DNA of 64,000 nt from Halorubrum sp. 2020YC2 (lineage in GTDB: Archaea; Halobacteriota; Halobacteria; Halobacteriales; Haloferacaceae). Where the stretch lies: NCBI RefSeq assembly GCF_018623055.1, contig NZ_CP076019.1, positions 1,054,001-1,118,000 on the forward strand, read 5' to 3'. Both the position numbers and the translations under genes were made by a program. Position 1 is the first letter of the stretch. Each line of letters starts with the position of its first letter. Shown piece after piece: positions 3,241 to 53,769 of the stretch. The notes under the pieces were generated by a model. That model saw only the letters and a program-made list of their open reading frames with translations. It had not been told where the DNA came from and did not search any database.

Positions 3241-3600
3241 CTTATAACGAACAACGCGGTGGCGCGTGCCGACGAGCGCCGCACCGCGGCGCGAGTCGCA
3301 CGCGCGAGGTCGCCGGCGGCGAAGCCGCCGGCTGCCAGAGAATCTTCGATTCTCGCTGGAGTCGGCCGACCGAAGCGGAGGGAGGCCGACGAGGCTGGGG
3401 AGGTGTGAGGTGCGTCGCTGTGCGGGGCGGAGTGGGACTCAAAGGGGCAGCCGCGAGGCGGGCGCAGGCGAAGTAAGGACCACAACGAGGGAGCGAACGA
3501 AGTGAGCGACCGAGTGAGGACCGCAGCGAGCGTGCGCCCGCCTTGCGGCTGGGGCTTTGAAGATGTTTACCACCGATCCACCGGGACCCGTTTATAAACG
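3241..3600 (+). repeat. Structured intergenic repeat, copy A (putative ncRNA)
   Basis: Fills most of the gap between the kinase and msrB. From 5' to 3': TATA-like CTTATAAC (3241-3248); a 23-bp head (3256-3278) identical to copy B; a nested double hairpin (3309-3357) absent from copies B and C; hairpin P1 with arms GTCGGCC/GGCCGAC (3361-3367/3384-3390); conserved core around GGGGAGGTGTGAGGTGCG; then CAAAG-GGG followed by a 19-bp stem P2 (3448-3466 with 3533-3551) and GGG-CTTTG; tail ending at TTTATAAA (3591-3598). Small ORFs on both strands here are not shared in frame by the other copies and are treated as spurious. RNA gene or mobile repeat is undecided. Confidence 0.75.
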
Positions 3601-3740
3601 AGCGACTGGAGCTTTGGAGGAACTCACCGCCGAGTTACTGACAACGATTTATAAGCGAACGGCTGGAGATTCGGAAGTCTTCGTTGCGTCGTCGTTCGCT
3701 TACATATCGCAGATAGCGGTGCCCGAAATCGATTTATAAA
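3552..3740 (+). repeat. Degenerate about 57-bp tandem tail units with TTTATAA boxes
   Basis: The tail of copy A is repeated in diverged form: GGGGCTTTGAAG (about 3551), GGAGCTTTGGAGG (about 3608) and GGAGATTCGGAAG (about 3665) are spaced about 57 bp apart, and each is followed by a TTTATAA box (3591, 3648, 3733). A similar second tail unit follows copy B at about 49428-49463. No coding gene is supported up to msrB. Confidence 0.6.
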
Positions 3741-5631: not shown

Positions 5632-8600
5632 TTAATCGTTCACCGTGAGTTTCTCGGTCTCCACGCCGCCGACGCTGACCTCGAACTCGGGGTTGCCGTC
5701 GACCGCGTACGTCAGTTCCCGCTCGTCGCCCGAGGGCACCTCGGGCTTCCATTGCACGAACCACTCGCCGTCCATGTCGACCACCGTCCCGTCGGAGAGG
5801 TCCGTCGGCTCCGTCGAGACGATGTCCGTGATCTCGAGCTGCTCGTTCACGTCCGAGTGGTTCTCCACGACGAGCGTCACCGCCTCGCCGTCCACCTCGC
5901 GCTCGACGCTGACGTTGTTCATGATCCGCGCCAGCGCGCCGTCGATGTCGGGGCGCGACCGGCCCGTCACCTCCGAGACCTTGTCGGCCATCTCGGGGAG
6001 GATGCGGCCGAGCACGTCCTGTTTCTCCCGGCGCTGTTGCATCGAGCGCCGCTTGTTGAGGAACGACTTCAGCTCGCGGGCCGCCTCGCGGACGGCCAGT
6101 TCGATTTCGTCTTCGATCGCCGGGACGTTCGCGAGGGCGTCCTTCGACTCGCTCGTGAACGGGACGTTCGTGGAGGCGACGTGGATGCTAATGACCGCGG
6201 GGCCGTTCGGCATCCCGGAGCCGCCGGGCTGGTCTAACCCGTAGTTGCGCCACCCGATCGACTTGATCACGTCCGTCGTCGCGCAGGCCCCGCGCTGGTA
6301 GACGAGCGGGACGCGGTTCGCGAACCGGAGCAGCTCGACGGACCCCTCCGACGGAATCTCCCCGCCGTAGGCGATGCCGGCCTCGACGATGAACGGGTCG
6401 CCGCCGTGGACGTCGGCGTCGCGGGTCGCGGCCGCGTAGAAGTCGGCGTCGTACTCCTTCCGCAGGCCGGCCTCGACCAGCTCGGCCGTGATCGGCGCGA
6501 GGCAGTCGGTCGGCGGCGCGAGGATGTCCGTCGTCCGCATCGCCTCCAGCAGGTCGGCGGCGGCGTCGCGGCTCCCCGCGATAGAGCTCACCTTCGGCGG
6601 GTCGTCGGGGACCGTCCGCGCCCGGGACCAGAACGCCTCGACGACGTTCTCGCGCGCCGTCTCCCCGAAAGTGGCGTCGCGCTGTTCCGCGACGAACGAC
6701 GCCGCGTCCGCGACGAGCCGTTCGAGGTCGTCGCGGGCGATCCGGAACGCGTCGCCGTCGAGGTTCCCGAACCGGCGCGCGAGCGCCTCGGCCATCGCCT
6801 GGACCGCTTCGTCGTCCTTCCGCGTCGAGGTCGCCTCGTCGACGAGCGCGTAGGCGTCGGGGACGAGCGGCGACTCCTCGGCGTCGTCGGCCTCGTCGGC
6901 GCCCCCGCTCTCGTCGCCACCGTCGGAGTCGGCGGCCTCGCCGCTCTCGCCGCCGAGACCCGTGACCGCCCGCCACGCGGCGTCGACCGCGTTCTCGCGG
7001 ACGGTCCCGCCGAACGTCTTGCCCGTGTCGGCCGCGACCGTCTCCGCGACCTCGTCGACGATTCCGGCGAGTTCGGACCGGGTGAGCCGGTCGTTGTTCG
7101 AAACCGTCTCCGCGACGCCCTCCGCGAAGGCGGTCGTCGCGTCCTTCCCCTTGTTGGCGACCGCCTCCGCGACCGCGCCCGCGACGTCGCGGTCGTCGTG
7201 CGCGCGCGGCGTCGACCACGACAGCTCGCGGCCGTAGTAGACGTCGCGGAAGTTGTCGATCACGCTGTCGGCGGTCTTCTTGCCGACCCGGGTGAACTCC
7301 TCTTGGAGGAACCCGGAGACGGAGTACGACTCGGTCGCCTCCAGCATCTTGATCAGCGACCCGAGCTCGACGCCGTGGGGGTGCGGGCGGATCTCCTCCG
7401 TCTCCGCCGGCAGCTCGTCGGTCGCGCGCTCGAACTTCAGCGGCTCGTCTAACCCCGGCTCGCGGAGTTCGAGCCGCGCGTGGGGATTGACGACCGCGGT
7501 GTGTTTCACGTAGTCGTGGAGCTGCTGGCGGGCGCGCATGTTCGCCTCCATCTCCAGCTCGATCCGGGTGCCGTGGGGGCGGTCCCACGTCGTCTCCTCG
7601 TCGGCCTGGATCTCCGGCTCGTTCGTGTCCGTGTCGATGATCAGCTCGAAGTACTGCGCGCGCGACTGCCCCTTCGGGCGCGAGGTGATCTTCGCGGGCT
7701 GGCCGGAGGTCAGCTGCGAGTACAGCACGGCCGCCGAGATGCCGATTCCCTGTTGGCCGCGACTGTTTTTCACGCTCAGTGCGCCCTCGTTGGAGACGAC
7801 GAAGTTTTCATCAGTCCCGGATTCGCCCGGAACGGAGATGTCGTACACGTGCTCCGGCGGCTCGGTCTCGGTTACGTTCTTCACCGAGAGCAGGCACATG
7901 TCCGTGTCCGTGATTCCGTGTAGGTCGGTGACTGTTTCCCAGAGCGAATCGAGCAAACCTGTCGCGAAGCCGGCGTCGTCGAGGAGCCCGTACTCCTGAA
8001 GGTTGTGTGCGTACCTCGGCTCGTCGATCTGATCCCCGTCCAGAGCGCGTTCGATCAGTGAGGCGTAGGTCTCCGCGTGTTCTCGGTTCGATCCGATTCC
8101 GGCACCCGTCAGCAATCCGGGAATCGTGTCGGGTACCGTTTCAGTGTCGGCGTCGCTGACACGCACGTCGTCGAGTAGCGCGGTCGGGACTCGCTTGTAC
8201 TGCTGTGTCCGCGGGGAATCCGAGCTTTTGAGCGCATCGACGGTATCGATGTCGGACCCGTACACCTTCGTCCGGTACTTCGTGGAGATACCGTCGCCGT
8301 ACCCGTCGCTGTCTTCCGAAACCTCCGTACTCGCGAGGACGCCCTGCATGTTCCAGAGCGTCGAGACCTGACGAGCTAACGTCTCGCTTCGCGTCGTGTG
8401 AGACAGTTCGTTGCTCGGGTGCGAATCGGACCCGTCTCCCTCGTAGAGCGCTCCGATAAACCGGCGCTGGAGGTCCGGATCGAGGTCGAAGACGAAGCCC
8501 GGAACGCGCTTATTATCGGCGGCATCGCCGCAGACGGATTTCAAGAACAGCGCCAGCGGCGAGCCGAACGCCTTCACGCGCGTCGAGTTGCGCTCTCGTT

Positions 8601-9819
8601 CGACTGTCGTCGTCGCTCCACCGATCGTCTGTACCGCCTGTTCCGTCGCTTCGATCAGATCCGATTCGTGGCTTCCGAACGTGAATCCGACTTGTCGCGG
8701 TCCCGCGTGTCCCTCGGACACGTAGTACGCCAGCATCTCGACCAACGACTCGTCGACCGGGAGCGACACCGGAAGCGTCGTCTCGTCGCCGCCGACCCGG
8801 TACGTCTTGAAATCGCAGTCGGCTGCTTTCTCTTCCCAACCGAGTTCCAAGACCGTCTCCGCCGGGAGATACCCTTTCTGGAGGTAGTTCTGGTCGAGGC
8901 TGTCCTTCAGGATCTCGACACCGTCGTATCGGTAATACGTGCGCTTTCGGTCGCTTTCGCCCGTCGGTTTCCGGCGAACCGTCTCTTCGGTCTGGAGCTG
9001 CTTGAGCGTCTCTTGTTCGAAACCGTAGACGTAGACACGCCGATCGGCAAACTCCCCGCGGTCGACGTGCTCGAGGAGATTGATCTCCTCGACGGTCCGA
9101 TCGGTCGACGGTAGCGTGCGGGGCGTGAGGAGCGTGTCTCCGGATTCGAGTTCGCCGGCTTTTACCTCCTGTGTGTCTCCGTTCGAGTCGACGCTGAACA
9201 CGCTGTGGTTCCCGGTGACCTCGACGGTTCTCCCCTTCTGGGTCTCTATCTCGTAGGTACGTTCGTCCGTTTCGTGACGGATCGCGTGAGTGACCGGCTG
9301 CCAGCTCATTTCCTGCGTCTCGCGATTGAAGGATGGAACTTCAATCGCGTCGGGGATCGGAGCAGTCGCGTCACCGTCTCCCGAGAGGTACGCGTCACAG
9401 AGTACCCCGATAGGGATGTACTCCACGTTTCCGTCCCGTCTAATGAGCAGTTGTTGGTCCGAAGTCAGCGATTGCTCACGGGCGTGGAACCGACTCCCGT
9501 ACAGCAGCTTCCCGAACACTTTCGGGAGCTGTTCTTTGGTGATGCCCGGCCCGTTGTCCTCGATGACGAGCCGGTAGTAGTCGCCCACCTCCTCTATCTC
9601 GATGTAGATGTCGGGGAGGTACCCGGCCTCCTCGGTCGCGTCTAAGGCGTTGTCGACCGCCTCCTTGACGGCGGTGACGAGCCCGCGGGCGCCCGAGTCG
9701 AACCCGAGCATGTGTTTGTTCTTCTCGAAGAACTCGGCGATGGAGATCTCGCGCTGGCCCTCGGCCAGCTCCTCCGCGATCCCCTCCTCGTCGCCGATCG
9801 TCGACTGGAAGGACGTCAT
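5632..9819 (-). CDS. top6B: DNA topoisomerase VI subunit B with intein
   Basis: 1395 codons in one frame: N-extein residues 1-116, intein 117-685, C-extein 686-1395, giving an 826-residue mature subunit. The GHKL ATPase fold is seen in EAVDNALDA and EDNGPGI, and in [10 protein letters not shown] right after the intein. ATP binding dimerises the subunit and drives strand passage by Top6A. The C-extein holds a haloarchaeal acidic insert with two similar segments ([14 protein letters not shown] and [14 protein letters not shown]). Start at 9819 (MTSFQSTIG) chosen over an upstream in-frame ATG because TTTTTA lies about 33 bp upstream and the extra residues are basic and unlike the family. Confidence 0.96.
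7765..9471 (-). other. LAGLIDADG intein inside Top6B
   Basis: 569 codons beginning with Ser (SLTSDQQLL) and ending GALSVKN before the +1 Ser of SRGQQGIG. Splicing block B is TGNHSVF; block F is VYDISVPG...ENFVVSNEG. Homing-endonuclease motifs are LAYYVSEGH (about 8700-8750) and ALYEGDGSD (about 8415-8450). The penultimate residue is Lys rather than the usual His. Codon choice is visibly less GC-rich than in the exteins, as expected for a transferred element. Mini versus full-length: full-length, with both DOD blocks retaining acidic residues or Glu substitutes. Junctions are placed by restoring the conserved extein [14 protein letters not shown]. Confidence 0.95.
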
Positions 9820-9846
9820 TCGGTATTCCTCTTTTCCCCCGAGGCA

Positions 9847-9856
9847 CCTAAAAACG
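9847..9856 (-). promoter_or_regulatory. TATA-like box for top6B-top6A
   Basis: On the minus strand CGTTTTTAGG lies about 33 bp upstream of the ATG at 9819, the usual position for an archaeal TATA element with a very short leader. Confidence 0.5.
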
Positions 9857-9988
9857 CACCGGCGGCGGGGTGAAAGTGGATCTCCGCGGCAGACGACCTC
9901 TCGCCGCCCCGTTCGGGAACGTGTCGCACGGGAGACGACGTCCGATCCGGCCGACAGGTTTCTCCCCGTGACGCCCCTTCGTCCGACC

Positions 9989-10957
9989 ATGACAGCGTGG
10001 ACGGCCAGAGAGATGCCGCGGCTGGATGGAAAGACGGTCGTCGTTACCGGCGCGAACAGCGGGCTGGGGTTCGAGGGGACCCGCGCGTTCGCCGCGAGGG
10101 GGGCGACCGTCGTGATGGCGTGCCGGAGCGTCGAGCGCGGCGAGGAGGCGGCCCGCGAGATCCGCGTCGACGCGGGGGGCGAGGCGGACGGCGAACTCGA
10201 CGTCCGCGAGTGCGACCTCGCCTCCCTCGACTCGGTGGCGGCGTTCGTCGAGGGCCTCGGAGACGACTACGACGCGGTCGACGTCCTCTGTAACAACGCG
10301 GGCGTGATGGCAATCCCGCGGAGCGAGACCGAGGACGGGTTCGAGACGCAGTTCGGCGTCAACCACCTCGGGCACTTCGCGCTCACCGGCAGGCTGTTCG
10401 ACCTCCTCGACGCCGCCGACGGCATCGACGGCGACGCGCGCGTCGTCACGCAGTCGTCGGGCGCCCACGAGCAGGGCGAGATGGACTTCTCCGACCTCAA
10501 CTGGGAGGAGTCGTACGGCAAGTGGAAGGCGTACGGGCGCAGCAAGCTCTCGAACCTACTGTTCGCCTACGAGCTACAGCGCCGCCTCGACGCGGCGCGC
10601 GGCGACAGCGACGAGGGTGACGGCCCGGGGATCCGCAGCGTCGCCTGCCACCCCGGCTACACCGACACGAACCTCCAGATGCGCACCGCGGCCGAGAGCG
10701 GGAACCCCCTCATGAAGGTCGGGATGAGGGCCGCGAACGCGGTGCTGGGGCAGGACCCCGAGACGGGCGCCGAGCCGATGCTGTACGCCGCGACGACCGA
10801 CGTCGACGGCGGCGCCTACGTCGAGCCGGGCGGGCTGATGAACATGCGTGGCCACCCGACCGTCGGCCGGTCGAACGACGCCTCCTACGACCGCGAGGAC
10901 GCCCGGCGGCTCTGGGAGTACTCGACGGAGGCGACCGGCGTCGAGTTCCCGCTGTAG
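9989..10957 (+). CDS. Short-chain dehydrogenase/reductase, retinol-dehydrogenase-like
   Basis: 322 residues. Rossmann motif TGANSGLG near residue 20, dinucleotide contacts NNAGVM, catalytic Ser in QSSGAH and YGRSK (Tyr/Lys) near the middle, so an active NAD(P)-dependent oxidoreductase. The length, the [13 protein letters not shown] segment and the HPGYTDTNL loop place it with the WWOX/retinol dehydrogenase/protochlorophyllide reductase-like branch; substrate unknown. Start at the ATG giving [10 protein letters not shown], although the conserved domain only begins at about residue 10. Monocistronic between divergent top6B and the convergent HhH gene. Confidence 0.92.
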
Positions 10958-49143: not shown

Positions 49144-49437
49144 GATTTATATCTGCGGTGGCGCGTGCCGACGAGCGGCCGCAGGGCGCGAGTCGCACGC
49201 GCGAGGGAGTCGGCCGGCCGGAGCGAAGCGGAGGCCGGCCGACGAGGCTGGGGAGGCGTGAGGTGCGGTTGCGGTGCTGTGCGGGGTGGGACTCAAAGGG
49301 GCAGCCGCGAGGACAGCGCAGACGACGTAAGCACCGCAGCGAGCAGCGCGAGCGAGGAGCGCAACGAGTGTGCGCCGTCCTCGCGGGTGGGGCTTTGGAG
49401 GTGTCTGCTGTCGATCGGCGGCCAGTCAATTATAAAT
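49144..49437 (+). repeat. Structured intergenic repeat, copy B (putative ncRNA)
   Basis: Follows ilvD by 23 bp. TATA-like TTTATATC (49146-49153), the 23-bp head identical to copy A (49155-49177), P1 arms GTCGGCCGGCC/GGCCGGCCGAC (49209-49219/49233-49243), the conserved core, GTGGGACTCAAAGGGG, P2 arms 49302-49320/49371-49389 (two mismatches), GGGGCTTTGGAGGTGT and AATTATAAAT (49428-49437). A degenerate second tail unit follows to about 49463; 49464-49527 shows nothing recognisable. Confidence 0.75.
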
Positions 49438-49527
49438 GGTAGACGGGAGCTTTGAAGATAGTCTCCGCGGCGCAGTCGGTCACGTATCAGAGAGGATATC
49501 GATAAATCCGAAGTTCCACGTCGTGAG

Positions 49528-49791
49528 TCACTTCAGCTTCTTTTCGCTCGTCCCGCCGTCGGTCTGTGCGGTGCGGACCGACTCGGCGCGCCAGACGTTG
49601 CTGCGGCGGCCGGCGCGCGACAGCTCCATTTTCACGACCGAGCCCACCGGCAGGTCCGCGACGCGCTCGCGGGCGTCCTCGTCGGCGTACTCGACGACGT
49701 GGTACGTCTCGTTGCGCGGATGGGCACGTACCGTGGTACATTCGTGATCGTTCTGTGCGGAAATGACGGTGTACGCGTTTGATTGCGACAT
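49528..49791 (-). CDS. Small conserved haloarchaeal protein
   Basis: 87 residues. Beta-rich: MSQSNAYTVISAQ, TTVRAHPRNETYHVVEYADEDARERVADLPVGSVVKMELS and VWRAESV. A family of unknown function; the LPVGS-V.M.L turn and Arg-rich strand suggest a small beta-barrel that may bind nucleic acid (inference). A TATA-like GAATATAC about 45 bp upstream of the ATG is visible on the minus strand. An 114-bp gap to the next gene contains only promoter-like AT-rich sequence. Confidence 0.75.
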   Translation of the reverse strand: MSQSNAYTVISAQNDHECTTVRAHPRNETYHVVEYADEDARERVADLPVGSVVKMELSRAGRRSNVWRAESVRTAQTDGGTSEKKLK

Positions 49792-49905
49792 CTTACCTCG
49801 TTATAGCTGGACATCCTACTTCAAATCTCCGTATATTCACTACGGTCGTCACCGAAGTCGTAATACCAATATAAGGTCTTGAAGTTCCGAACCGATCAGG
49901 CGGAG

Positions 49906-50232
49906 TCAGGGGGCGTTGTTCAGCATGAACAGCAACAGCAGTACCCCGAAGCCGACGGAGACGAGCAGGAGCGCGAGGAACGTCAGCCGTATCGCGAGGA
50001 TGGCGTTCGTCCGCTTCTCGGGGAGGAACTCGGAGACGGCGAGTAGCGCGAGCGTCACGCCGGCGAAGGTCGGGAGCAACCGAAACCCGTCGATCCGCGA
50101 CACCGATTCGATCGTGAACAGGTTCCACCCGGCGATCGCCAAACCGATCGCGAGCAGCGCGGCGCGCTCGATGAGGGCCGTTCGCTGTGCGACGACGGCG
50201 TCTCTGACGCGGCGGAGCCGATCGGAGGGCAT
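49906..50232 (-). CDS. Small three-helix membrane protein
   Basis: 108 residues: a basic start MPSDRLRRVRD, then hydrophobic stretches LLAIGLAIAGWNLFTI, LLPTFAGVTLALLAVSEFL and AIRLTFLALLLVSVGFGVLLLLFML. No family recognised; possibly a general haloarchaeal membrane protein. Divergent from the NYN gene. Confidence 0.72.
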   Translation of the reverse strand: MPSDRLRRVRDAVVAQRTALIERAALLAIGLAIAGWNLFTIESVSRIDGFRLLPTFAGVTLALLAVSEFLPEKRTNAILAIRLTFLALLLVSVGFGVLLLLFMLNNAP

Positions 50233-50332
50233 GCTGTTTCAAGCCTCACACGGCCAATAAAAAACTGCCGTCGGTGTCGACTCCCCGACCGCGGATCAGT
50301 ACGCCTATTCCCGACGGCGGCGAAGACCGGCC

Positions 50333-50887
50333 ATGGACCGAGGCGAGGGGCCAGAGGGCGAGCCGACCGATGACGGCGTGACGGACACGGACGGCGTCAC
50401 GGACGTAGACGCCGGCGGCGTGGCGCTGTTCGTCGACGGCCCGAACGTGTTGCGCGAGGAGTTCGACGTCGACTTAGACGACGTACGCCGGGCGGGCGAG
50501 GCCGAGGGACCGCTCGTGACGACCCGCCTGTACCTCGACGAACACGCGACGCCGGGCCTCATTCAGGCCGCGGAGGCGCGCGGCTTCGAGGTCGTGGTCA
50601 CGAGCGGCGACGTGGACGTGAAGCTCGCGGTTGACGCCGCGCGGTTCGCGGCCGAGGGCCGGATGGACACCCTCGCGATCGCCTCGCGCGACACGGACTT
50701 CAAGCCGGTCGTCGAGACCGCGAACGGCTACGGGATCCGAACGCTCGCCATCGCCCCCGGCGAGTTCGGGCGCTCGGACGCGCTCCGGAACGCCGCCAAC
50801 GGCTCCGTGACGCTCGACGGCGACGAGAGCGAAGCGGCGGAAAGCGATGACGGTGACGCGGAGGCCGAATCGGCCTCGACGCGATAG
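50333..50887 (+). CDS. NYN-domain (PIN-like) protein
   Basis: 184 residues. NYN/LabA-like domain between about 25 and 160: VALFVDGPNVL (first Asp), GDVDVKLAVDAARFA (second acidic cluster), LAIASRDTDFKPVVETA (third Asp). Members are metal-dependent RNases or RNA-processing factors. Acidic low-complexity ends are haloarchaeal additions. No partner gene. Followed by repeat copy C in the opposite orientation. Confidence 0.9.
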   Translation: MDRGEGPEGEPTDDGVTDTDGVTDVDAGGVALFVDGPNVLREEFDVDLDDVRRAGEAEGPLVTTRLYLDEHATPGLIQAAEARGFEVVVTSGDVDVKLAVDAARFAAEGRMDTLAIASRDTDFKPVVETANGYGIRTLAIAPGEFGRSDALRNAANGSVTLDGDESEAAESDDGDAEAESASTR

Positions 50888-50911
50888 GGATCGAGTGACG
50901 TCGGCGGTGGC

Positions 50912-51210
50912 TATTTATAAAAGATCGACAACTCGACGGCGAACACCTCCAAAGCCCCAGTCGCGAGGACGGCGCACGCTTGCTGCGCGCTTCAGTCGCT
51001 CACTTCGTTCGCTCCCTCCAGTGCTTACGTCGCCTGCGCCGTCCTCGCGACTGCCCCTTTGAGTCCCACCCGCACCGCAACCGCGCCTCATACCTCCCCA
51101 ACCTCGTCAGTCGCCTCCGCTTCGCTCCGGCGACTGACTCCCTCGCACGCGCTCCTCGCGGCCTGCCGGCCGCTCGGAGGCGCGCGCCGACCGCATCAGC
51201 CGTTTAAATA
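50912..51210 (-). repeat. Structured intergenic repeat, copy C (putative ncRNA)
   Basis: Same element on the minus strand: TATA-like TATTTAAAC (51210-51202), diverged head GCGGTCGGCGCGCG, P1 arms GTCAGTCGCC/GGCGACTGAC (plus-strand 51106-51115/51129-51138), conserved TTGGGGAGGTATGAGG, GTGGGACTCAAAGGGG, P2 with a perfect 19-bp stem (plus-strand 50958-50976/51035-51053), GGGGCTTTGGAGGTGT and TTTATAAA at 50912-50923. Fills the gap between the NYN gene and the signal peptidase gene. Confidence 0.75.
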
Positions 51211-51230
51211 GTCGCTGCCGACAGTCAGAC

Positions 51231-52141: not shown

Positions 52142-53769
52142 ATGGAGGTCATACGAACCATTCCGGTCAAACTCTCGGTTCCAGACGATCGTGAGGAAGA
52201 CCTTCATCAGACCATCGAGCAGTTCAACCGCGGCTGTAACTACACCGTCCAGAACGGAAGGAACGACGACGGCTACCTCATCCTCAACAAGTCCACAATA
52301 CACGACAAAGTGTACCACGACTTGCGAGACGAAACAGACCTCCCCGCGAACCTTTGCGTTCGCGCCTACTCCAAAGCCGTCGAAGCGATGAAGTCCACGG
52401 TCGCAGACTGGAAGAAGGGGAACAGCCGGCCACTTCCACGGTTCAACGAGCCGTCAGCCGTCTACGACAAACGGACGCTGACTATCAAGGACAGGTCGGC
52501 CACCCTCTCCACTATCTTTCTTCGAGGAGAGAATCCCGCCGTTCACGGCGGGCGTGAATCCGACATCGCCTCCACAACCTACGTTCAGCAACAATACGGA
52601 TATTTAACTAATAGTGTATCGTAGCATGACGTACACCGAGGCGGTCACACCGCCCACTCAAATGCACAATATCGGGACTCCGAGGCCCAGAACGTTCGAG
52701 ACACACTCTCGAACCGCTGTGGTGTCTCGGTCAAGATAACTCCGAGTCCCCTGCCGGGATAGGAGTAACGGCGGTGTGGCCCCGCCATCGGCCTGTCATG
52801 CCGACAGGCCGTGAACCAGCAAATATCCCAACCCAGCGGTGTAGTGCCGTGGGAAGCCTCGCCGTTTACGGCGAGGAGGAGGTCACCAACGGTCGGGTTG
52901 CCGTGGACTACGTTCTCGGAGACTACCAAAAGTCCTACCTCGATGATGACGACTACGAGAAGCGGATGGGAACGCTCCACTACCGCGAAGACGAGGATGC
53001 GTTTTACCTCCACGTCGTCATCAAAAAAGAGGTCGAAGAACGAGATGGTGACAAGGTTCTGGGCGTGGATTTGAACCTCAAGAACGTCGCTGTGACCAGC
53101 ACAGGGTCGTTCTACGATGGTGGCGAACTACTGTGGGGGCAGAACCACCACTTCCGCGTGCGTCGTAGCCTTCAGCACAAAGGCACTCGCTCCGCCAAGC
53201 AGGTACTCCGGCGACTGTCGGGGCGAGAAAATCGCTTCGTGCTGAATCGCCTGCACACCATTTCTCGACGTATCGTGGAGGAAGCAGACAGTCACGACTG
53301 TTCGTACATCGCCGTCGAACGCTTGACTCACATCCGCGAGCGGATGGACAACCCGAACGACCAAGTGAAGCGCCAGATGCACAACTGGGCGTTCCGCGAA
53401 CTCCAGGAAATGCTTGCGTATAAGGCCAGTGAGTACGGGATTCGCGTTGAGCAGATACCGCCTGCGTTTACGAGTCAAACTTGCTCGAAGTGTGGGCATC
53501 AGTCCAGTACGAACCGCGATAGCAAGACTGGGTGGTTCGAGTGTAACGACTGTGGGTACTCGGTTGACGGCGACTACAACGCCTCAAAAAACATCGGTTT
53601 GAAACTTCTAACTTTACCGGAGGGCAAACGTCCCTCTGGGTTGGGCGACGGTCATCTCGCCCTCAAGTCCGGGATGCTGAACGGGAACGGCAATTACACT
53701 GCCTACGACATTTCGTCGTCAGACCGGGAGTCCACGGACAAACCCACGACTTCAGTCGTGGGTCGATGA
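52142..53769 (+). pseudogene. tnpB: tnpB of an IS200/IS605 (IS1341-type) element, split by a 374-bp insertion
   Basis: Removing 52513-52886 restores one frame of 417 codons, the usual TnpB length. N-terminal part MEVIRTIPVKLSVPDDREEDL to ATLST; C-terminal part NGRVAVDYVLGDYQ onward with RuvC residues in VLGVDLNLKNVAV (Asp), YIAVERL (Glu) and DGDYNASKNIG (Asp), and a zinc finger CSKCG...CNDCG. TnpB is an RNA-guided nuclease; no tnpA is present. The C-terminal half keeps all catalytic residues but lacks the N-terminal RNA-binding part. The hairpin CCCACGACTTCAGTCGTGGG (53743-53762) at the 3' end is the expected omega-RNA end. Confidence 0.9.
52513..52886 (+). mobile_element. 374-bp non-autonomous IS605-like element inside tnpB
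   Basis: Bounded on the left by target CTCTCCAC and ending GGTCAC on the right, without target duplication, as in IS200/IS605 transposition. Contains no sizeable gene. Dense in inverted repeats: CCCGCCGTTCACGGCGGG (52535-52552), GGCGGT-CAC-ACCGCC (about 52640), GGGACTC pairing with GAGTCCC about 70 bp later, TTCGAGA/TCTCGAA, GGCCTGTC-ATGCC-GACAGGCC (about 52790-52811) and CCTCGCCGTTTACGGCGAGG (52857-52876). The last hairpin and end match right ends of haloarchaeal tnpB elements, so this may be an orphan omega-RNA cassette. Confidence 0.75.

Follow-up and report, generated by a model that had tools for sequence, protein, structure and literature searches.

The question raised by this locus is what a repeated, non-coding sequence is doing between the genes of Halorubrum sp. 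2020YC2. A preliminary description of the 64-kb stretch of DNA analysed here (the window) had proposed a family of non-coding RNAs (ncRNAs), each copy preceded by its own promoter, and placed its members at 3241-3600 (+), 49144-49437 (+) and 50912-51210 (-). All three were found at these places and on these strands. The window contains three exact occurrences of the block GTGGGACTCAAAGGGG, a count that none of 100 shuffled sequences reached even with three mismatches permitted, and a covariance model of the core, run on the window, matched the three copies alone at E values up to 1, the copies themselves scoring between 7e-20 and 3e-23. The frames of the three copies were compared and no common reading frame was found, in agreement with the description.

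Three copies are what the window holds, but the family is far larger. In the organism's own genome, a single contig of 3.06 Mb, the core model found 126 copies at E<=1e-5, and the family makes up about 1% of the sequence. At E<=1e-3, 12 Halorubrum genomes gave 135 (own genome), 94, 104, 99, 10, 86, 58, 52, 131, at least 150, at least 150 and 1 copies; in the multi-contig genomes the copies lie, among the matches listed, on the largest contigs. The two low-copy Halorubrum genomes (G020 with 10 copies and G042 with 1) are both 99% complete, and their congeners carry from 50 to at least 150. More widely, the core is present in 86 of 116 genomes of Halobacteria, in 36 of the 46 genera sampled; when 84,980 species were scanned independently with a sequence pattern, the matches listed were exclusively haloarchaeal records. 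The plasmid collection contributed seven matching records, all haloarchaeal. Phage records and IMG/VR viral contigs searched with the family core gave no match, and a virus or phage origin was rejected on this ground. The check proposed in the preliminary description, a covariance-model search of haloarchaeal genomes and Rfam, thus yielded many haloarchaeal copies and no Rfam match at the gathering threshold, which bears out its remark that no named RNA family could be recognised; with E values up to 5 admitted, the best Rfam match was a miRNA family at chance level, and there was otherwise nothing. No tRNA or tmRNA was found in the corresponding search, a literal search of 5.39 million published papers for the core sequence gave no occurrence, and a literature search on comparable repeats turned up analogues alone. 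The element apparently represents a previously undescribed haloarchaeal family of hairpin repeats.

The anatomy of the element was derived from 38 aligned copies and comprises, over some 250-300 bp, a hairpin P1, a hairpin P2, a G-rich linker, a long hairpin P3 and then a 57-bp tail unit. The P1 consensus is GCGCGTG-C-stem-GA..GA-stem-CACGCGC, with inner arms that covary and a bulged C and tandem GA mismatch that persist. The arms of P2 are variable yet complementary (examples are GTCGGCCG.., GTCAGTCG.., CGCGGCG.. and GTCGCTGG..), and P2 is joined to P3 by a linker of the consensus GAGGCTGGGGAGGYGTGAGG..GCGGGGYGGGACT. In the window (49244-49291) and in all copies of the genus this linker carries at least four G-runs on the folding strand, and these might fold as a G-quadruplex given the high K+ inside haloarchaeal cells. 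P3 follows the consensus CAAAG-GGG-CAG..CTG-GGG-CTTTG; its foot pair covaries (CAAAG/CTTTG, CGAAG/CTTCG, GAAAG/CTTTC, GGAAG/CTTCC), and its internal loop GACGYAAGCACC/GGAGCGCAGCGAG is conserved across families. In other haloarchaeal families P3 can occur alone or as inverted pairs. Optional double-hairpin inserts are found at three positions: the P1/P2 hinge, the linker and the inside of P3. A two-hairpin insert at the P1/P2 hinge (..GCCGGC..GCTGCCAGAGAATC..GATTCTCGCTGGA) recurs in several species (window 3310-3359; L062, L071, L078, L385) and is possibly a smaller mobile module. The tail unit begins with GGGGCTTTG, carries TTTATAA and stands in tandem one to five times, its repeats near-identical inside one locus and differing among loci; the longest array noted (L036, 1733-2011) has 4.9 units, and tandem tail units also occur in L008, L022, L023 and L027. 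A CRISPR-like array was considered for the tail and rejected, because the would-be spacers are almost the same inside each locus and show relatedness across loci.

This plan can be followed through all three copies of the window. In the copy at 49144-49437 an AT-rich, TATA-like left flank, GATTTATATC (49144-49153), of a lineage-specific kind with variable spacing, is followed by P1 at 49160-49202 (GCGCGTG-C-CGAC-GA ... GA-GTCG-CACGCGC, with the bulged C and the tandem GA mismatch), by P2 at 49209-49243 (GTCGGCCGGCC-GGA-GC(GAA)GC-GGA-GGCCGGCCGAC) and by the conserved linker GAGGCTGGGGAGGCGTGAGG..GCGGGGTGGGACT (49244-49291). Its P3, delimited by pair counts at 49292-49398, reads CAAAG-GGG-CAG .. 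CTG-GGG-CTTTG around the conserved internal loop GACGTAAGCACC/GGAGCGCAACGAG (core-model match 49286-49399, 112.8 bits), and the tail at 49389-49444 consists of a unit with TTATAAAT and then a degenerate second one. The copy at 3241-3600 has, by sequence, the flank CTTATAAC (3241-3248), P1 (3261-3306, also by pair counts), P2 (3361-3391) and the linker (3392-3431), then P3 (3432-3561, model match of 107.6 bits) and a degenerate tail region with more TTTATAA boxes (3551-3740); it is longer than the other two because of an extra two-hairpin insert at about 3310-3359, like the inserts at that hinge elsewhere. On the minus strand, the third copy runs from the flank TATTTAAAC (51202-51211) through P1 (51147-51189) and P2 (51106-51138), both placed by alignment and pair counts, and the aligned linker (51070-51105) to P3 with its conserved internal loop (50948-51069, 124.5 bits) and a tail with TTTATAAA (50911-50947). 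The preliminary description had taken TTTATAAA for the end of the element, and in this it erred: the motif sits within the 57-bp tail unit.

Two other places in the window may be mentioned here. An open frame of 1452 aa at 5632-9990 (-) resembles DNA topoisomerase VI subunit B with its GHKL ATPase motifs and is apparently interrupted by an intein. About 1 kb from the third copy, two adjoining frames at 52142-53769 (+) resemble a split IS605-type TnpB, with the zinc-ribbon part 3', and possibly represent a disrupted gene.

Which strand folds, and as which molecule, was addressed through the stems and loops. RNAalifold gave 61 pairs, with kept double changes in 32 of them. When isolated stem mismatches alone were counted in 140 copies, G.T outnumbered A.C by 42 to 12 (p=5e-5) and G.G outnumbered C.C by 22 to 2. 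A cruciform or strand-neutral mutation predicts equal mismatch numbers, and the strand of the element as written is therefore the sole folded strand; a cruciform in double-stranded DNA is accordingly disfavoured. A conserved secondary structure on one strand is what is expected of an independent ncRNA gene, and if each copy were transcribed from left to right and acted as a protein-bound RNA, the covariation, the single folding strand with its G.T tolerance and the complex conserved internal loop of P3 would all be accounted for. The likeness to Rfam ncRNA families extends to the conserved core, the covarying stems and the optional helices at fixed hinges. The tolerance of G.T, however, is compatible with RNA and single-stranded DNA alike.

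The apical loops differ from those expected of RNA. In 342 copies, 233 of 370 apical triloops found by a simple script, in which related hairpins are not independent, were GNA with all four bases at N, versus 6 TNC; GNNA tetraloops numbered 40, of which only 3 were GNRA, the published RNA motif used as comparator. Most loops are closed by a C-G pair, so that the prevailing forms are C(GNA)G and, among tetraloops, C(GNNA)G. In DNA, a GNA or GNNA loop (N being any base) on a G-C stem gives a minihairpin of extraordinary stability (PMC4686876); in RNA the corresponding motif is GNRA (PMC5815330). P1, P2 and P3 share their apical loop and closing pair with the d(GCGAAGC)-type minihairpins (PMC4686876), which have been described singly; here they form the tips of larger hairpins across a whole family of genomic repeats. 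The loop types favour, to a moderate degree, single-stranded DNA as the folded molecule, and the acting molecule may be DNA rather than RNA. A purine is scarce at the third position of the GNNA loops, for which DNA stability does not account, and the internal loop of P3 is more elaborate than anything in REP elements and would suit RNA. Of the ncRNA family first proposed, then, the non-coding nature, the conserved structure, the covariation and the single folding strand hold, but the apical loops are of the DNA type. Base pairs that covary strongly in a genomic repeat do not by themselves imply RNA, the loops being DNA-type and an exchange of whole hairpins (see below) being able to generate it. 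Further points against RNA genes are the presence of more than 100 unequal copies, which is unusual for an RNA gene, and the fact that no T-run terminator was seen 3' of P3.

The promoter question bears on the same alternative. Over 111 copies, AT content rises to about 0.75 at -20 to -12 from the GGCGCG of the head, against a background of about 0.35; the AT-rich peak spans -24 to -11, is mostly TTTATAA-like and is accompanied by a weaker peak near -50. The trend towards a TATA-like box ahead of the head was thus correctly noticed, but its presence and spacing are not constant: the position varies within a range of about 13 bp, boxes are missing from a minority of the copies, and none was seen beside the core in the inspected copies from other families. 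Transcription from a TATA box that begins about 18 bp ahead of GGCGCG would moreover start within the 5' arm of P1, and a promoter at the fixed spacing expected of an ncRNA gene was not found. That the element is transcribed from its own promoter, as the preliminary description supposed, is rather doubtful, because the spacing varies, the start would fall inside P1 and the box is absent in some copies and in the inspected copies of other families. The AT-rich box resembles the tail unit and appears as a lineage-specific flank. Boxes do lie upstream of most copies in the genus, and the weaker peak, some 50 bp upstream, would start a full-length transcript; taken with the DNA-type loops and the loose spacing, a multi-copy structured ncRNA is regarded as a somewhat unlikely explanation.

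The genomic location was analysed mainly in 1.2 Mb of the sister genome G037, in which none of 87 copies lies within a predicted gene. Convergent spacers hold 34% of copies versus 7% of the empty spacers of at least 100 bp (p=7e-10), divergent spacers 17% of copies versus 36% of empty spacers (p=7e-4), and the gene context in the own genome is similar. Enrichment between convergent genes, depletion between divergent ones and strong hairpins are what a cis-acting 3' element would display, i.e., a (bidirectional) terminator or a stabiliser of mRNA 3' ends. Yet two thirds of the copies are outside convergent spacers, the left gene points toward the element in 54 of 87 cases and away from it in 33, the pairing constraint acts on one strand alone and no T-run was noticed 3' of the hairpins, so that such a role is very unlikely to explain the family. 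Copies stand in either orientation relative to neighbouring genes, which also speaks against RNA genes. Even spacing along the own chromosome was rejected, the placement fitting a random one, as was a strand bias (61 and 65 copies on the two strands). Nine pairs of copies in the own genome are less than 2 kb apart, including that of the window (49144/51210); eight of the nine have a tail-to-tail arrangement (+ then -) with one to three genes in between, and close pairs in other families are head-to-head.

Comparison with the sister species revealed sites that are fixed and contents that are not. For 31 sites both flanks were locatable in G037, at a flank identity of 78-97%; at every one of these testable sites the sister genome carries an element in the same orientation, as a script showed for 30 and inspection for the 31st. 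The 60 bp to the left of the element are more alike between orthologs than between paralogs (identity 0.72 versus 0.55, p=6e-11); inside the element orthologs have no such advantage, the values being 0.69 versus 0.66 for P1 plus P2 (p=0.1) and 83.4% versus 82.4% for P3. The same P2 hairpin was found in none of 30 ortholog pairs and the same P1 in one of 24, and a P2 hairpin is common to about 2% of all copy pairs irrespective of species. Pairs that share P2 rarely share the other modules: P1 in 1 of 111, the linker in 2 of 168 and P3 in 2 of 187. Between orthologous sites the arms of P3 differ by 83 double changes from one Watson-Crick pair to another, versus one-sided changes to 9 GT and 4 AC, which matches the expectation of whole-hairpin replacement, and the stems are intact at every shared site parsed. 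At one locus, site A, the copies L069 and L070 form a mosaic, nearly alike in P3 and tail and unlike in P1, P2 and linker. In the sister species, too, the 57-bp tail unit is largely specific to its site. At sites A and B a second, more distant Halorubrum clade has no element, so that over longer times sites must arise or disappear. Halobacteria have been characterised as highly recombinogenic (PMC3988388), and the lost orthology together with the unlinked modules suggests ectopic gene conversion as the simplest mechanism of exchange.

A settled non-autonomous transposable element, MITE or PATE-like, whose old insertions make up the present pattern, was weighed against these observations. It would fit the dispersed copies with their seemingly random spacing, the patchy copy number (1 to more than 100), the sites empty in the distant clade and the plasmid-like islands that carry the copies of low-copy genomes. 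In the distant genome G049, moreover, three copies (L393, L402, L410) have the P3 core inside terminal inverted repeats of the type GTGTTCAGATAA; these cores may have been captured by a MITE-like element. Insertion polymorphism of the kind expected of MITEs is nevertheless absent from the 31 sites common to both sister species, the most similar pair in the own genome is only 88% identical, near-identical pairs being absent, and viral copies are lacking and plasmid copies few. The stems intact at all shared sites parsed also stand against it. MITEs resemble the element in being short, non-coding and multi-copy; they spread as whole copies, whereas here modules reassort, and no inverted terminal repeats or clean target duplications were seen by eye in the copies of the genus. 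The palindrome-associated transposable elements, or PATEs, of haloarchaea (PMC3119063, PMC10544981) are likewise non-coding, palindromic and, as the element in the genus, without inverted terminal repeats, and transcription has been reported for one that a Halorubrum virus carries (PMC10544981). PATEs originate from IS605 ends, and their positions vary among strains, whereas the element keeps its sites; it also had no match in the phage records searched. A transposable origin of the present pattern is thus distinctly unlikely.

The closest likeness is to the bacterial REP, BIME and REPIN elements, which also have many extragenic copies, hairpins on one strand, a bias towards gene ends, tandem units that are alike per locus and unlike among loci, and inverted pairs (here in other haloarchaeal families). 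As a high-copy extragenic repeat that forms hairpins, with 126 copies and none of the 87 checked in G037 inside a gene, the element agrees with them. It differs in its length of 250-300 bp (REP, 20-40 bp), its three hairpins and long conserved core, and the feet of its hairpins were found to lack a tag of the GTAG or CGTC type. The Y1 transposase PF01797 (RAYT) gave no match in the copy-rich genomes G002, G004, G005, G016, G019, G027, G053 and G070, which led to the rejection of a RAYT/Y1 partner and speaks against transposition as well; the family is therefore not a RAYT-driven REP system. By the features tested, the element belongs neither to REP nor to MITE, nor to any family in Rfam. In low-copy genomes (1-3 copies), five copies (L389, L391, L398, L401, L407) share one arrangement: in plasmid-like islands of five genera, each core is some 370-560 bp away from the start of the same recurring, uncharacterised OB-fold-like gene and faces away from it. 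A Pfam search with this gene gave no match, and the neighbour search in low-copy genomes found no partner gene common to all genomes.

The reading tentatively preferred, at somewhat less than an even chance, is that of a REP/BIME-like extragenic DNA-hairpin element with stable sites, whose hairpin modules reassort by ectopic conversion. Its G-rich strand would fold into the three hairpins once single-stranded, be it as lagging-strand template, as displaced strand of an R-loop or as a repair intermediate, and would then act, as bacterial REP/BIME do, as a chromosomal DNA-hairpin site at gene ends, mostly between convergent genes. A protein probably recognises P3 and the G-rich linker; a topoisomerase, a structure-specific nuclease or a single-strand binding protein would be a guess. 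The sites would be inherited vertically without moving, whole hairpin modules being swapped in by ectopic gene conversion from other copies, and they presumably benefit the cell. A bolder version, considered unlikely, holds that more than 100 permanent intergenic sites exchange single-stranded DNA hairpin modules, perhaps via a dedicated structure-guided conversion, so that their contents are continuously reshuffled. To our knowledge, no prokaryotic repeat family with permanent sites and reshuffled hairpin contents is known.

The family offers more than 100 natural sites at which ectopic gene conversion, and the structures that DNA adopts when single-stranded, could be followed in polyploid archaea. 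If the element acts as RNA instead, few structured RNA families of archaea would be as abundant.
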